Source: Lachnospiraceae bacterium
GTDB taxonomy: Bacteria; Bacillota; Clostridia; Lachnospirales; Lachnospiraceae
Length of the DNA: 35,909 nt
Assembly (NCBI GenBank): GCA_017626325.1
Contig: JAGAIZ010000053.1
Location: 1-35,909 of the forward strand
Reading direction: 5' to 3'
Shown here: positions 2,251-35,909 of the stretch, piece after piece
Layout: every line of letters begins with the position of its first letter
Numbering within the stretch: position 1 is the first letter of the stretch
Made by a program: the position numbers and the translations under genes
The notes under the pieces: model-generated
Databases searched by the model: none
Told to the model about the DNA's origin: nothing
Seen by the model: only the letters and a program-made list of their open reading frames with translations

Positions 2251-3369
2251 TTATATGGTAACAAGCTCATACTGATCCGTTCCAAGCCCAATCTTCACCG
2301 CATGAGCAATGCAGGACTTCCACTCGGTGTCGGGGTGGGTCATATGGAAATGATCATGTCCCTCCTCATTGCCGTGCGCTCTTAAGTTCTCTCCCAGAAT
2401 ACTGCTCTCCACCGGCGTCATCTGATTGCACAGATCCGCACACGCCTGATCCAGAGCCACCGGGTCGAAGGACGCCAGCATTCCCACATTGGGGATGATC
2501 GGAATATCGTTCTCCGCATGGCAGTCACAGTTGGGCGATACGTCGCAGATTAACGACACATGGAAGCAGGGACGATCCTTACATACCGCAAGGCTGTACT
2601 CTGCCATCTTATAATTCAATACCGCAATCGAGTCCGCGAAATCCGCCGCAATGGCATCCTTCGGGCAGACCGCAAGGCAACGCCCGCAGCCCACGCATTT
2701 TTCATGGTCAATCGCTGCTTTGCCGTTCTCGATAACAGGCGCGCCGTGAGCGCAGATTCTGCTGCAGGCGCCGCAGCCCACACATGCCGACTGGTCTACG
2801 CTTGGTTTGCCTTCGCAGTGCTGCTCCATCTTACCCGCTCTGGAGCCGCAGCCCATACCGATATTTTTCAGCGTTCCGCCGAAGCCCGCCATCTCATGTC
2901 CCTTAAAATGGGTCAGAGAGATGAACACATCCGCATCCATAATGGCATGGCCAATCTTCGCTTCCTTCACATATTCTCCGTCAATGGGCACGATTGTCTC
3001 GTCCGTGCCTTTAAGACCGTCGCCGATGATCACATGACAGCCTGTCTGATAGGGAGAAAAGCCGTTCACGTAAGCGGTTTCCAGATGATCCAGCGCATTC
3101 TTGCGGCTTCCCACATATAAGGTATTGCAGTCTGTAAGGAATGGCTTGCCGCCAAGCTCCTTCACGTAATCCGCCACCACTCTGGCATAGTTGGGGCGTA
3201 AGAACGCCAGATTGCCGTACTCGCCGAAATGAATCTTGATCGCCGCATACTTATCTGTAAAATCAATGGTTTCAAAACCTGCCGTCTTCATGAGACGATG
3301 CAGCTTCTGTAAAAGGTTCTCATGCTCCGTCGCCTTAAAGGACGTAAAATAAACTTTTGCCTGTTCCAT
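2251..3369 (-). CDS. DUF362 protein with two 4Fe-4S clusters
   Basis: A 372-residue iron-sulfur protein. Residues about 1-180 form the DUF362 domain (KIHFGEYGN, LTDCNTLYVGSRKNALDHLETAYVNGF region, FISLTHFKGHEMAGFGGTLKN region). Two ferredoxin-type motifs follow, CVGCGACSRICAHGAP and CVGCGRCLAVCPKDAI, each able to hold a 4Fe-4S cluster; a C-terminal DUF362 part follows them. The role of the family is unsettled; an electron-transfer or redox function in an anaerobe is likely. I chose the ATG at 3367-3369 because AGGAGGG lies about 9 nt upstream; the ATG eight codons earlier has no ribosome-binding site. It is probably first in an operon with the cupin gene. Confidence 0.87.
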   Translation of the reverse strand: MEQAKVYFTSFKATEHENLLQKLHRLMKTAGFETIDFTDKYAAIKIHFGEYGNLAFLRPNYARVVADYVKELGGKPFLTDCNTLYVGSRKNALDHLETAYVNGFSPYQTGCHVIIGDGLKGTDETIVPIDGEYVKEAKIGHAIMDADVFISLTHFKGHEMAGFGGTLKNIGMGCGSRAGKMEQHCEGKPSVDQSACVGCGACSRICAHGAPVIENGKAAIDHEKCVGCGRCLAVCPKDAIAADFADSIAVLNYKMAEYSLAVCKDRPCFHVSLICDVSPNCDCHAENDIPIIPNVGMLASFDPVALDQACADLCNQMTPVESSILGENLRAHGNEEGHDHFHMTHPDTEWKSCIAHAVKIGLGTDQYELVTI

Positions 3370-3592: not shown

Positions 3593-5092
3593 TCACGAAC
3601 CTGCCCGGCGAAACTGCACCGGTTCTACCTCTTCCGACAGCGGCAGCATTTCATACTCCGGAAACTGGTCTATAAGATCGCCAAGACACAGCGTCGTATT
3701 GCGGACTACATCGTGGGCCAGCATCACCACCTTGTTTCTGCCAAGAGTACTCTCCACCCCGTTGGCAATCAGGCTTTCCGGCGTGCTCTTCGTGACCGCA
3801 TCCTCCAGACTGGCATTCCAGTCATAATAGATATATCCTTTCTCCGTCATGGCCTCGATGATTTCCTCATACACCTCATCGTCATAGGCGTTAATGCTGC
3901 CGCCGGGGAAACGGAACAGCTTCGTCTCCACACCCGTAGCCTCATAGATAATCTGTCTGGCTTCCTCGAAATCCGCCACATAAGCCTCTGCACTGCCATA
4001 GATCGTCTCGTATTCATGCCGGTTGCAATGAATGCCTATGGTGTGTCCCTCCGCCGCAATCCGTTTCGCAATCTCCGGATGTCTTTCCACGTTCTCCCCT
4101 ACCAGGAAAAAGGTCGCCCTGATATTCCGCTCCTTCAGAATATCCAGCACAGCCTCGGTATTCTCTGCGGACGGTCCGTCGTCAAAGGTCAGATACATTG
4201 TTTTGGGATGAAAATAATAGTCTACACTGTCAGCGATTGCCTCCGCCAGCTTATCCTGATAGTCCCGGCTTGCCAGAAGCTCTCTTTCTTTCCTGTTGGA
4301 AAGGAAACCCGTTTCCACCAGACAGGCCGGCATGTCTGCCTCACGGATGACATAGAGATCTTCTCTGGCAAGCGCTGTCCTGTCGTTGGCCTGGGTATAG
4401 CTTATCATCTGCTTCTGTATCAGTTTCGCCAGTCTCCTGCTTCCATCGTCCTTCCCCGTATCACAGTAATAGGTCTCAATCCCCCGCACTTTCGCGCCAT
4501 CCTCTTCACTGAAATTCTGATGGATGCTGATATAAAGGTTTCCCTGCTTCTTATTGGCGAACAGTACCCTTTCTTCCAACGATACCTCTTCGTCCCCTTC
4601 TCTTGTCATCAGCACGTCGTAACCCAGCTTCCGAAGCTTCTTCCTGACATTCTTTGCAATCTCCAGATTGATATCCTTCTCCAGAATGTCTTCTCCCACA
4701 CAGCCGCCGTCTATGCCGCCGTGTCCCGGATCGAGAATGATAAGCGGTGTCTGCTGCGCTTCGTCCTGCGCCTGCCCGCTCTCTGATGCTGCTCCCTGCG
4801 CCTGTACGCCTTCTGACGCTGCTCCCTGCGCCTGCCCGCTCTCTGATGCTGCTCCCTGTATCTGAGATACCGCTCCGCGAGGCAGTGCCTCAGAAGATGC
4901 CGCCACCGTCAGCGCTTCTTCTTCCCGCACACCGACTCTGCCCGCCGCAGGCTCCCATTCCCGCGCCATCACAATGGTTGCGCCGCAGCTTATGGCAAAA
5001 ACCATGACGCCGATCAGGAACACTGCTGCCATCCTGCCTCTTCCTTCTCTGTGCTTCCATGCATAACGCCTGCTTCTTCTGTTTCCGTACAT
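3593..5092 (-). CDS. Bifunctional N-acetylmuramoyl-L-alanine amidase / polysaccharide deacetylase
   Basis: A 499-residue membrane-anchored cell-wall enzyme. A basic N terminus and one hydrophobic segment (about 21-43) precede a low-complexity linker holding three 10-residue repeats (80-109). Residues about 117-295 are an Amidase_3 domain with zinc ligands H124 (DPGHGG), E138 and H191 (SIHQN) and catalytic E260 (VETGFLSN). Residues about 298-480 are a NodB-type deacetylase: TFDDGP (D304/D305), HCNRH (H355/H359), RFPGG (R394) and LAHD (H460). All key residues of both domains are present, so cutting of the stem peptide from MurNAc and de-N-acetylation of glycan are both plausible. AAAGGGG lies 8 nt before the ATG. 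It appears to be transcribed alone. Confidence 0.9.
   Translation of the reverse strand: MYGNRRSRRYAWKHREGRGRMAAVFLIGVMVFAISCGATIVMAREWEPAAGRVGVREEEALTVAASSEALPRGAVSQIQGAASESGQAQGAASEGVQAQGAASESGQAQDEAQQTPLIILDPGHGGIDGGCVGEDILEKDINLEIAKNVRKKLRKLGYDVLMTREGDEEVSLEERVLFANKKQGNLYISIHQNFSEEDGAKVRGIETYYCDTGKDDGSRRLAKLIQKQMISYTQANDRTALAREDLYVIREADMPACLVETGFLSNRKERELLASRDYQDKLAEAIADSVDYYFHPKTMYLTFDDGPSAENTEAVLDILKERNIRATFFLVGENVERHPEIAKRIAAEGHTIGIHCNRHEYETIYGSAEAYVADFEEARQIIYEATGVETKLFRFPGGSINAYDDEVYEEIIEAMTEKGYIYYDWNASLEDAVTKSTPESLIANGVESTLGRNKVVMLAHDVVRNTTLCLGDLIDQFPEYEMLPLSEEVEPVQFRRAGS
4766..4855. repeat. Three 30-bp coding repeats in the amidase linker
   Basis: Three in-frame 30-bp units encode GAASESGQAQ, GAASEGVQAQ and GAASESGQAQ, a flexible Ala/Gln/Ser linker between the membrane anchor and the amidase domain. 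Copy number could vary without changing the reading frame. Confidence 0.85.
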
Positions 5093-5227
5093 AACAAAGA
5101 CCCCTTTCTTCTTAACACATCTTCTGCATTAAGAATACATAGAGGTCTCATCAAACTCACATATTTTTGCCATCATAACTGCAAGCTTTCATCATCGGAT
5201 TTTCATATTTTATGCATCAAAGCTGCA

Positions 5228-6055
5228 TCATCTTGACACCTTTAAGAACAACTCGTTGATTCCCTCATAGAAACCGATCGTCATCACAGTACTGCCCTCT
5301 TTCATGCCGGGTAACCTGTATTTCTCATAATCGTCCGTCGTTTCCAGAAGCGGATTCTCATTATCGTCCGCTTCCATACCGCTAAGCCCCAGATACGCTC
5401 CCCAGCTTGCCGCCATAGCGTCCGCATCCAGTGTCTCCCACGTACTCTCAACCGTCCGCACATAGAACTCATAGATTTTGCCGGTATCCGCATCGATATA
5501 AACGTCCAACAGACACCCTTCTCTATTGGCGTTCTGCTGCCCGGTCTGCAGACTGATTTTCCACACAGACAGATTGTTGCGCGGTTCCAACACATCGATT
5601 GCCGAATACAGCACCGCGCTGTGGGTCTCGGCACTGACACTGTGCACCTCGTCCGGCAGCACGGAAAGCTCCCTTAACACCGCAAGTTCTTCGTTACACC
5701 TTGCATAGATCTGCTCGTCCGTAATTTCCTGCCCGGAAGGTCCCTGATGGTTGACTACGAAGGCATAGTTGCCCGTCAGGCTGTCGTAATCCACTTCCTG
5801 TTCCGTCTTCGTCATGGCGCTTGCCTCGCTCTCCGGCAGCACCTGATTGGTCAGACATTTGGAGAGGATATACAGCTTCTCATTGCTGTTCAGGGCATAC
5901 CGATAGCCCTCTCCTTTGTCCTCCACCGTCTCTGCCACGATATGATTTAAGGTAGATCTGTCCCTGTATTTTACAAGCTGTTCCGGCATCCACACGGCGG
6001 CGCACAGCACAACCGCGGCGGTCACGATCAGAATATGTACTTTCCCCTTACGCAT
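5228..6055 (-). CDS. Membrane-anchored extracytoplasmic protein of unknown function
   Basis: A 275-residue protein with one N-terminal membrane segment (about residues 6-22, no lipobox) and a mostly soluble outer part. I do not recognise a catalytic domain. The segment LLDVYIDADTGKIYEFYVRT resembles the beta-hairpin of PepSY/YycI-like modules, which often modulate partner proteins, but the match is loose. Its start overlaps the end of the kinase gene by 8 bp, so it is the last gene of the secreted protein-regulator-kinase operon. Position suggests an accessory factor that modulates the kinase (inference, by analogy with YycH/YycI of the WalRK system). Confidence 0.7.
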   Translation of the reverse strand: MRKGKVHILIVTAAVVLCAAVWMPEQLVKYRDRSTLNHIVAETVEDKGEGYRYALNSNEKLYILSKCLTNQVLPESEASAMTKTEQEVDYDSLTGNYAFVVNHQGPSGQEITDEQIYARCNEELAVLRELSVLPDEVHSVSAETHSAVLYSAIDVLEPRNNLSVWKISLQTGQQNANREGCLLDVYIDADTGKIYEFYVRTVESTWETLDADAMAASWGAYLGLSGMEADDNENPLLETTDDYEKYRLPGMKEGSTVMTIGFYEGINELFLKVSR

Positions 6056-33381: not shown

Positions 33382-33415
33382 GACTTCTTAATTAACAGTT
33401 GCTTTCTATAATAAA

Positions 33416-33441
33416 CCCGAAACCCCCAGGATCGTTCCGGG
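33416..33441 (-). terminator. Possible attenuator hairpin between csrA and hag
   Basis: CCCG.AAC pairs with GTT.CGGG (one mismatch) around a 10-nt loop, followed on the minus strand by TTTATTATAG. It is a weak terminator at most and could set the csrA to hag ratio. Confidence 0.4.
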
Positions 33442-33459
33442 CTATTACCCTTTCCCGTA

Positions 33460-33735
33460 TTATCTTACGGTATCCTTCTTTGTGTTATCGCTTACAGCCG
33501 CTCTTTTCTTCTTCCTGTATCTCTCGGGCAGTTCCGGTTCCGCATAGTAATGAGAAGTTTCCCTGCCATCGCCTGACGCCGCTCGTTTCTCAAGCGCTTT
33601 GCTTCTGACTACATTGACTTCTTTGGGAATATCCAGCATTACGCGCGTATGGTTCCTGCTCCCGCCTAAGAATACAATCCGTATATCATCCCCGATCTGT
33701 AAATATTCCTCCGTATTCACCGTCATCCTTAACAT
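33460..33735 (-). CDS. csrA: CsrA-type RNA-binding translational regulator with extended tail
   Basis: A 91-residue protein. Residues about 1-50 match CsrA (QIGDDIRIVFLGGSRNHTRV, DIPKEVNVVRSKALEKR) with the RNA-contacting R44 kept. The first strand differs from classical CsrA (MLRMTVNTEE instead of MLxLTRKxGE), lacking Arg at position 6. The tail of about 40 residues is longer than usual and very basic in part (RYRKKKR). GGGAGG lies 5 nt before the ATG; the leader also holds GCGGAA and CCGGAAG, possible self-binding sites. The gene directly precedes hag, its expected target, and follows the left repeat of the invertible segment by about 50 nt. The usual antagonist FliW is not in the window. 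Confidence 0.83.
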   Translation of the reverse strand: MLRMTVNTEEYLQIGDDIRIVFLGGSRNHTRVMLDIPKEVNVVRSKALEKRAASGDGRETSHYYAEPELPERYRKKKRAAVSDNTKKDTVR

Positions 33736-33784: not shown

Positions 33785-33813
33785 GATGTAACTTTTGTCT
33801 TAATAATGTTGCA
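33785..33813 (-). repeat. Left inverted repeat of the invertible segment
   Basis: Read on the minus strand this 29-bp site matches the right repeat at 27 of 29 positions, including 20 identical bases in a row beginning TGCAACATT. Its own dyad is imperfect: the outer arm GTTACATC pairs poorly with GATGCAAC-type bases. It lies between csrA and the recombinase gene. The arms-plus-central-spacer form fits a tyrosine recombinase core site. Confidence 0.88.
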
Positions 33814-33869
33814 AACAGTGAAATAATGAATTCGCCAAACGTTAAATCAGTCCAAAGGAGGAAATGTAA

Positions 33870-34451
33870 ATGAGTGTCACTTATCCAATCAAGAACAGAA
33901 AAACCCTGGAACGCTTCAAGGGCTACTATGCCGTCGTTAAACCAAATCCCCGCAATTACACAATGATCATCATGGGGCTTAACACGGCTTTTCGTATCGG
34001 AGACCTGCTGCAGCTTCGATGGAAGGATGTCCGCGACTCATCCGACGGCAGACTGCATACCCATATCTGCATCCGGGAACAGAAAACAGGAAAGCAGCGC
34101 GTAGTACCTATTAACCCTGCCGAAAAACAAGTCCTGACTGACTACTATGCCGTCTGCCAATATAATTCTCCCGGGGATTATCTGTTTCCCAGTACCCGCA
34201 CCAATACGCTTCCTATTTCCCGCTATCAGGCATACCGGATTGTAAAAGAAGCCGCAATCCACAGCGGCCTTGACGAACATATAAGCTGTCATTCTCTGCG
34301 CAAAACATTCGGGTATCATGCATGGAAGCAGGGAACTCCGCCCGCTATGCTGATGGATCTGTACAATCATTCATCTTACCGGGTCACCAAACGTTATCTG
34401 GGAATTGAACAGGATGAAAGAGACGATGTATATATGCGCATTGATTTATAG
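33870..34451 (+). CDS. Small tyrosine recombinase (FimB/FimE-size DNA invertase)
   Basis: A 193-residue protein consisting of the catalytic domain only, without the N-terminal core-binding domain of phage integrases; FimB and FimE, which invert the fim promoter in E. coli, have the same size. Catalytic residues: R42 (FRIGDLLQLRW), K72 or K75 (EQKTGKQR), H141 and R144 (HSLRKT), H167 (YNHSS) and nucleophile Y176 (KRYLGI). AAAGGAGG lies 8 nt before the ATG. The gene sits between the two 29-bp inverted repeats, so these are its likely substrates. Nothing indicates a prophage or larger integrative element. Confidence 0.92.
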   Translation: MSVTYPIKNRKTLERFKGYYAVVKPNPRNYTMIIMGLNTAFRIGDLLQLRWKDVRDSSDGRLHTHICIREQKTGKQRVVPINPAEKQVLTDYYAVCQYNSPGDYLFPSTRTNTLPISRYQAYRIVKEAAIHSGLDEHISCHSLRKTFGYHAWKQGTPPAMLMDLYNHSSYRVTKRYLGIEQDERDDVYMRIDL

Positions 34452-34520
34452 AAAGAAGGTGGAATTTAATTTGACAATTTAGAGGATCCAAGAACTTACA
34501 TCTTTTTTAGAAAAAGGGGT

Positions 34521-34547
34521 TAAGTATTTGAAGGATGTTCCGATATA
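34521..34547 (+). promoter_or_regulatory. Sigma-28 (SigD/FliA)-type flagellar promoter inside the invertible segment
   Basis: TAAG (34521-34524), 15 nt, then CCGATATA (34540-34547). The SigD consensus is TAAA, 14-16 nt, CCGATAT, so the -10 is perfect and the -35 matches three of four. It points right, with a predicted start near 34553, only about 14 nt before the right repeat. No flagellar gene lies downstream in this orientation. Confidence 0.75.
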
Positions 34548-34564
34548 TAGTATGTAATCAAAAA

Positions 34565-34600
34565 GATGCAACATTATTAAGACAAATGTTGCATCTTTTA
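34565..34600 (+). terminator. Intrinsic terminator formed by the right inverted repeat
   Basis: GATGCAACATT and AATGTTGCATC form a perfect 11-bp stem around a 9-nt loop, followed by TTTTATTAT. It would stop transcripts from the recombinase gene and from the sigma-28-type promoter just upstream. Confidence 0.8.
34567..34595 (+). repeat. Right inverted repeat of the invertible segment
   Basis: The plus-strand copy of the 29-bp site, in inverted orientation to 33785-33813. Its dyad is perfect, unlike the left copy, so it doubles as a terminator stem. Confidence 0.88.
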
Positions 34601-35334: not shown

Positions 35335-35909
35335 TTAATCCTCTATCTTATTATGCCTTTTTTGTATCTCATCCACCAACTCATGCACCGTCGTACACGG
35401 GCACATCTCTGATGGCTTTGTTTTACCTTCTCTAATACACTGCCCCAGCTTCTGCTGTGCTATCTGAATTGCTTTTTCTTCATCTCCGGCTTTGCAGAGT
35501 TTTCCGTATATCTGCTCATCAGCTTTGGAATATTTCTGACCTGTTTTGTTTTCATATACTCGTCCAAAATCTGAGCAGCAAGTCCAAGAATCCTGAATTG
35601 CCGGCATGAAACAGAAATAGGTATACATCCATATTTCAAAGCATGGATTGGACCAGCCCACCTGTATTCCTTTACTCACTGCTTCCGCAATAATCTCGTC
35701 AAACCCTTGCACTTGGTCTCTGTCAAATACAACCCACGGGATAAGATACTTTGCATCATAAGCTGTGAGTTCCAGACATTTATCAATCATGGTACGAGTC
35801 TTTGTCTCAACAACCTTGATAACAAGCTTATTTCTGATATCCTCCGACAAAGCCTGATGAAGTCCTGTAAAGTAACAACGCTCTGTAGCTTCTGTATCAG
35901 TAACAATCA
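35335..35909 (-). CDS. RloB-family protein (5' end beyond the window)
   Basis: The frame stays open to the right edge, so the start is outside. The visible 191 residues begin VTDTEATERCYFTGLHQAL, a form of the RloB N-terminal VTEGEKTE.NYF-like motif, then VVFDRDQVQGFDEIIAEA with paired acidic residues, then VGWSNPCFEIW. RloB proteins usually pair with the AAA ATPase RloA and are linked to phage defence near restriction loci; the fold is thought to be nuclease-like (family knowledge). No rloA is visible; it would be expected upstream, outside the window. It ends at 35335 with a basic tail (QKRHNKIED). Confidence 0.78.
   Translation of the reverse strand, partial: IVTDTEATERCYFTGLHQALSEDIRNKLVIKVVETKTRTMIDKCLELTAYDAKYLIPWVVFDRDQVQGFDEIIAEAVSKGIQVGWSNPCFEIWMYTYFCFMPAIQDSWTCCSDFGRVYENKTGQKYSKADEQIYGKLCKAGDEEKAIQIAQQKLGQCIREGKTKPSEMCPCTTVHELVDEIQKRHNKIED

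Follow-up and report, generated by a model that had tools for sequence, protein, structure and literature searches.

Does the recombinase gene that lies between inverted repeats upstream of a flagellin operon in this Lachnospiraceae genome turn its own segment over and so switch flagellin synthesis on and off? The DNA considered here, which we call the window, is a single contig of 35,909 nt (C36) from a genome of 3.11 Mb in 88 contigs. Taken together, the layout of the locus and its comparison with relatives make it very probable that the window carries a self-encoded flagellin phase switch, predicted to stand in its OFF state. The original prediction, made from the window's letters, had pointed out the recombinase, the repeats and the neighbouring genes; it did not include the sigma-D-type promoter, the hairpin that contains the distal repeat or the two paralogous cassettes elsewhere in the genome, all of which bear on the answer.

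The segment, its recombinase and its promoter

The proposed enclosure of the recombinase by 29-bp inverted repeats proved exact to the base (Table 1): the two copies of 29 nt lie 753 nt apart and match at 27 of 29 positions (93% complementary), 20 of them consecutive. This 20-bp identical part, TGCAACATTATTAAGACAAA, occurs in the window only in these two copies when up to three mismatches are allowed, against a chance expectation of 0.00 (mean of 100 dinucleotide shuffles of the window). As predicted, the segment lies directly upstream of csrA-hag, two adjoining minus-strand genes recognised by their Pfam matches, with 49 bp between the proximal repeat and the operon. It carries the recombinase gene, whose start codon is 56 bp from the proximal site, and the promoter, and no other cargo. 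An Rfam scan of the window gave no match at the gathering threshold. Two features outside the segment may be mentioned. On the distal side of the switch, an RloB-like gene (PF13707, 2.2e-34; 35335-35907) is truncated by the contig end. Between csrA and hag, on the minus strand, there is a terminator-like hairpin (~33405-33445; 33430-33416 by computation), similar to one seen by eye between csrA and flagellin in a second cassette of this genome (L002, ~2577-2625); such an intergenic hairpin is possibly an attenuator or a CsrA target.

Table 1. Features of the putative switch and its target operon, in window positions
Feature	Position	Strand	Basis and remarks
Predicted invertible segment, 811 bp	33785..34595	.	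Inverted-repeat search; outer repeat edges
csrA-proximal recombination site (putative)	33785..33813	+	Outer half imperfect; outside flank without T-run
Tyrosine recombinase, 193 aa, catalytic domain only	33870..34451	+	ORF, Pfam, alignment, model
Sigma-D/sigma-28-type promoter motif, TAAG-N15-CCGATATA	34521..34547	+	Motif match; faces outwards at the distal end and away from csrA-hag
Terminator-like hairpin	34561..34599	+	Perfect 15-bp stem, 9-nt loop, 3' arm ends TTTT, then ATTATG
Distal recombination site (putative)	34567..34595	-	Shares 20 bp, centre included, with the proximal site
csrA, 91 aa; leads the operon presumed to be switched	33460..33735	-	CsrA match, E 1.5e-13
hag, flagellin, 352 aa	32277..33335	-	Flagellin_N 3.1e-42, Flagellin_C 2.1e-25

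The enzyme had been described as a tyrosine recombinase reduced to its catalytic domain, and its open reading frame bears this out. Residues 28-177 match Phage_integrase (PF00589; E 4.5e-29, 101.8 bits against a cut-off of 27.1), which is the sole recombinase match in Pfam; the serine recombinase catalytic domain of Hin and Gin was not found. Six residues (R42, K75, H141, R144, H167 and Y176) are invariant in 35 aligned sequences, the window's included, and we take them, from general knowledge of the family, to be the catalytic R-K-H-x-x-R-H-Y residues. The NCBIfam models XerA, FimE, XerD and FimB are among the matches, all far below their cut-offs, with FimB (PRK09870, residues 27-176) at 33.6 of 221 bits and FimE (PRK09871, residues 27-177) at 58 of 222. 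The best AlphaFold model has a mean pLDDT of 86.8 (71.7-77.4 for the other four), and its best PDB fold matches are phage and Xer tyrosine recombinases, with TM-scores to the query of at most 0.72 among the best 50 of 147. Tyrosine recombinases are also among the matches of a PDB sequence search; short matches to pentatricopeptide repeat proteins in the same search, including the top two, were taken as spurious. Judged by these comparisons, the enzyme is a minimal tyrosine recombinase, Fim-like in size and outside the Fim family.

Just 3' of the recombinase gene, in the window as in the two other cassettes of the genome, stands TAA(A/G)-N15/16-CCGATATA, the sigma-D/sigma-28 promoter pattern. 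On contig C64 the same pattern precedes an unswitched flagellin, about 140 bp before its Flagellin_N match, and a FliA-type sigma factor is encoded in the genome (268.9 bits, cut-off 189.6). Since the motif is hardly commoner in this genome than its reversed control (25 matches vs 21), it is its position and not its mere presence that carries the argument for a promoter. A sigma-70 scan of the window found seven matches vs a mean of 6.1, which is chance level, and was therefore not used.

Relatives, recombination sites and a split hairpin

In collections with one genome per species, the recombinase family is present within the genus in 40 of 77 genomes (E 1e-30, own genome counted), in 31 of 397 at the level of the family (E 1e-40) and in 52 of 392 at that of the order (wider profile, E 1e-40); from a pattern-based scan of a genome collection, the best 80 of 333 relatives were kept. 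The 171 recombinase matches gave 134 genes distinct in DNA, a sample that leans to close relatives of the window. Most of these genes (108) adjoin csrA or flagellin, and 26 do not, several of the latter lying at contig ends or having short flanks. Flanking repeats scoring at least 14 were found at 91 of the 108 linked loci, and no repeat above this cut at the other 17; the cut lies above all shuffles of the linkage scan (five per locus, maximum 13), and other shuffles reached 14. A further 28 loci include seven with repeat scores of at least 14, namely the three re-fetched loci with a promoter towards csrA-hag that are discussed below, L209 and L211 from the same family and beside csrA, L219 from another family and beside csrA-flagellin, and L226 without such a neighbour. 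One locus, L068, is included in the 91 counted for repeats and the strict promoter pattern and, its repeat being of another kind (see below), left out of the site, leader and direction counts; L111 is left out of the leader calculation, and the other omissions are loci lacking a flank. The segment has a median length of 784.5 bp (706-1359) across 90 repeat-flanked loci.

Among the relatives, the recombinase of L068 lies between two divergent flagellin genes, within an 84-bp inverted repeat of another kind (4814-4897 and 5700-5783, 82/84). L025 and L114, which belong to the 17 linked loci below the repeat cut, have a recombinase beside flagellin, with no csrA found between them and a single left-over site by eye; they are apparently decayed switches. 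In L031, L037 and L049, tandem csrA-flagellin pairs stand beside the switch, and one pair adjoins the invertible segment. Finally, the recombinases of L190-L194, from the same genus (~2501-3073), are sisters that form one group (support 99, quick tree) and lie between close inverted repeats (scores 23-37 vs 10-11 for the null); they adjoin genes of surface-polysaccharide type, as read by eye, and lack the sigma-D motif. There, the cassette plan seems to serve other surface structures.

The strict promoter pattern occurs on the recombinase strand, 3' of the gene, in 80 of the 91 repeat-flanked loci, vs 1, 0 and 2 of 91 for the other combinations of strand and side. A relaxed pattern and a division into class A and class B loci, both devised after inspecting the misses of the strict one, raise this to 85 of 86 class A loci vs 1, 0 and 0 elsewhere, the four class B loci being set apart (L122, L131, L132 and L196). 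In class B the promoter lies on the opposite side of the recombinase gene; where the motif was found (three of four), it points away from csrA-hag. The three members placed in the tree are a single clade (support 94). Because of this opposite placement, the direction of the recombinase gene was dropped as a measure of switch state, and states are counted by promoter direction. By one pattern or the other, 88 of 90 repeat-flanked loci have the motif within the segment, directed outwards. This comparison bears out the layout first proposed for the window, with recombinase and flagellin promoter in one invertible segment. Neither pattern finds a promoter in L082 and L132; by eye, L082 has a -10-like CCGATA only, and L132 exceeds the spacing of the strict pattern by one base.

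The arm-spacer-arm form that had been read from the window's two repeats recurs in 88 repeat pairs of the family. When 88 of the 91 repeat-flanked loci are aligned on the dyad, conserved arms (CAAC ... GTTG) enclose a centre of about seven bases, which is identical within the locus in 87 of 88 cases vs 196 of 5584 comparisons between loci (49 kinds of centre); in the single odd pair, L111, the distal site is shorter by one base. Arm positions vary in the outer half (24-38% at -7, -6 and -4) and little in the inner half near the centre, and beyond 14 bp from the centre mismatches reach 62-86%. Conserved arms around a centre that is identical within each locus are the signature of tyrosine recombinase core sites. 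Since the 88 pairs had been picked by their likeness, the comparison was repeated with each side searched separately for the arms: sites turned up on both sides at 83 of 108 loci, and the centres are identical in 80 of these 83 vs 153 of 6806 comparisons between loci, the exceptions being L003, L028 and L111. Centres that are shared within loci and seldom between them lead us to predict that cassettes in one cell seldom cross-react. In L028 (Roseburia faecis M72, ~4850-5720), the promoter and the distal hairpin are kept and the site centres differ, and this switch may be locked.

As the window is now oriented, its promoter is closely followed by a terminator-like hairpin, which encloses the distal site. 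At loci whose promoter points away from csrA-hag, this hairpin pairs the outer half-site at the distal end with the inner half-site on the promoter side, and the promoter lies a median of 21 bp from the distal site (15-76, all motif-bearing loci). Leaders were calculated for 87 of the 91 repeat-flanked loci, with the crossover made on paper at the site centre. All 80 OFF leaders have a T-run, and their median perfect stem is 14 bp, vs 10 of 80 and 4 bp for the computed ON leaders; the stem is longer in ON than in OFF at six of 80 loci. The three loci with the promoter towards csrA-hag mirror this: as deposited, their half-sites are parted, with stems of 3-4 bp and a T-run still present in two of three, and flipped on paper they have stems of 16-18 bp and a T-run in all three. 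Complementarity between half-sites that lie apart in the deposited sequence would be difficult to account for if they did not stand side by side for some of the time. The csrA-side copy, for its part, mostly comes without a T-run in the computed ON leaders, which argues that it is not kept as a terminator.

Promoter direction and alternative readings

The genome holds two close paralogues of the window recombinase, on contigs C78 (L002, 79% identical) and C87 (L003, 66%), as well as a fourth match of 26% within a longer frame. Both paralogues are divergent from a csrA-flagellin pair of their own and lie between inverted repeats of their own, which match at 22 of 23 positions in L002 and at 77% over 31 in L003, with a mismatched centre in the latter. 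L003, whose repeats are at 1410-1440 and 2249-2279 of the locus, may be a locked switch; the repeats of its sister L014 match at 21 of 23 positions. Aligned with one another, the three switched flagellins agree closely at their ends (80-97% identity over the first 150 columns, 86-95% over the last 100) and much less in the middle (15-43%), the part exposed on filaments. Eight proteins of the genome have a Flagellin_N match, five of them away from the three cassettes.

In all three cassettes the promoter points away from csrA-flagellin. Together with the mismatched centre of L003, this would fit a formerly working switch that is now locked OFF in this lineage, with the promoter kept and inversion lost. 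We think this unlikely, as the window recombinase is intact, with its conserved residues present, and the window sites agree over 20 consecutive base pairs including the centre.

Related genomes had been named as the place to look for both orientations, and both occur there. Among 88 motif-bearing loci, the promoter points away from csrA-hag in 85 and towards it in three (L024, L040 and L049), which lie on separate branches of the recombinase tree and force three changes (quick tree). Compared with L031, L033, L036 and L037, the recombinase part of L049 is reversed and csrA-hag collinear; in the comparison with L033 only, the reversal also covers the promoter end up to the repeat, and it reaches both repeats. 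L024 vs L059 and L040 vs L064 are likewise reversed over parts of the segment, at ~76-79% identity. No pair of conspecific genomes with opposite orientations was found in these collections of one genome per species. The distal flanks did not align in these comparisons, so that collinearity is that of the csrA side only, and the repeat score of L040, 14, is just at the cut, a value that shuffles in other analyses reached. The skew of 85 to three could reflect rare or regulated flipping, three cases being few; it may stem from an enzyme bias towards OFF, from selection against exposed flagellin or from rare flipping. FimE of E. coli is biased towards OFF, according to the available text of one study (PMC2784873).

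These comparisons also bear on whether the arrangement is a fixed regulatory one, in which the repeats would form a terminator or bidirectional structure, the recombinase would act elsewhere and csrA-hag would be read from another promoter. The shared direction of 85 of the 88 promoters is what such an arrangement would give, and a weak sigma-A-like match in the csrA end (33488-33459, 9/12, chance level) could drive hag in either orientation. Yet three lineages on separate branches have the promoter towards csrA-hag, the reversal between L049 and L033 reaches both repeats, and the csrA-side copy mostly lacks the T-run; moreover, recombination demands the identity of centres found in the arms-only search, and a terminator does not. 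We hold a fixed arrangement to be quite improbable. A mobile element (a tyrosine-recombinase transposon or integrated cassette near flagellin genes by chance) would account for a recombinase gene enclosed by inverted repeats and for the up to seven related recombinases per genome elsewhere in the order (G586, G649), but it was rejected as extremely improbable on the csrA/flagellin context of 108 of the 134 genes and on a viral-contig scan, limited to two peptide patterns, that gave one distant relative (28%), and it fits poorly with a segment without further cargo and with a promoter direction and terminator halves fitted to csrA-hag.

The proposed switch and known systems

We therefore return to the self-encoded phase switch. 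Sites, gene, promoter motif, split hairpins, their conservation and both promoter directions among species are all present in the DNA, and they amount to an inverton at the level of sequence, that is, a promoter between repeats of recombination-site type with both orientations among relatives. The recombinase would bind the two 29-bp sites and turn the 811-bp segment that carries its own gene and the sigma-D promoter. As the window is oriented, the promoter would read away from csrA-hag and its transcript would run straight into an intrinsic terminator over the distal site, the OFF state. Inverted, the segment would have this promoter reading into csrA-hag (ON). A crossover in the central spacer would part the halves of the terminator stem, and, the csrA-side flank being without a T-run, transcription would continue. 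We infer from the sequence the enzymatic inversion, the activity of the promoter and its dependence on sigma-D, termination, read-through to csrA-hag, and the resulting ON and OFF expression. Three such cassettes stand before three flagellins with different middle domains, in a genome that also has flagellin-domain genes without a cassette.

More broadly, we lean towards the view that this is a module of many Lachnospiraceae, in which a private recombinase and site centre for each cassette would allow several flagellins of a cell to be switched independently; with the site doubling as half of a split terminator, a single flip would turn the promoter and dismantle the terminator. Judging by isolated cases such as L219, the module would also reach further families of the order. 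Its role would be to vary the filament towards immunity or phages. Lachnospiraceae flagellins are major targets of intestinal immunity, and a common, heritable and reversible switch before them would help explain variable motility and flagellin exposure. If this view holds, the great predominance of OFF among the genomes examined would mean that these commensals leave their variable flagellins unexpressed in the majority of cells, with exposure limited to a minority. Such cassettes may also be a source of many recombinase/site pairs that are mutually insulated. Orientation counts in existing long-read and metagenome data could test the switch.

In the parts of the literature that were searched, we found no inversion switch before a Lachnospiraceae flagellin, though gut inverton surveys may hold instances; nor did those parts contain the combination of a private tyrosine recombinase, an internal sigma-D promoter, a split terminator and a flagellin target, with several cassettes per cell and many relatives. 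By word search, the accessible text of a 2013 paper on Eubacterium and Roseburia flagellins (PMC3720852) is without the words recombinase and integrase.

Of known systems, Salmonella hin/fljBA likewise places a recombinase gene and a flagellin promoter in one segment bounded by inverted repeats, and its orientation sets whether a downstream flagellin operon is transcribed; alternative flagellins are common to both. The Salmonella operon includes fljA, a repressor of the other flagellin, whereas the operon of the window has csrA. The window further differs in its distal site, which lies within a terminator-like hairpin, and in the three cassettes of one genome. Hin is a serine recombinase and the window enzyme a tyrosine recombinase; the Salmonella invertible promoter and its serine invertase are described in the available portions of two reports (PMC11868660, PMC7241687).

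The fimB/fimE-fimS system of E. coli shares with the window a small tyrosine recombinase that lacks the N-terminal domain, and an invertible segment with a promoter in it. The Fim recombinases are encoded outside their switch, and the fim target is fimbriae; the window recombinase, as described above, is far below the FimB and FimE cut-offs. In Clostridioides difficile, a tyrosine recombinase, RecV, also inverts DNA upstream of flagellar genes, between 21-bp repeats (PMC5386303, PMC7446863, in the portions available), and acts on several sites (PMC7241687, likewise in part). Going by the same excerpts, its segment of 154 bp is without a promoter and too short for a recombinase gene, control is exerted after initiation through Rho, and the target is the early flgB operon and not flagellin, whereas the window segment holds a recombinase and a promoter motif next to csrA-flagellin. 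A parallel to the split terminator is C. difficile cwpV, for which the available text proposes an intrinsic terminator at the repeat in the OFF transcript that is lost by inversion (PMC2784873); there, again as far as that text goes, the promoter is outside the segment, the recombinase elsewhere and the target a cell-wall protein. Each of these four systems has one part in common with the window. Judged by its parts, the putative switch works like hin/fljBA and fim and is a member of neither family; it would be a natural hin-like switch made from a different class of enzyme.
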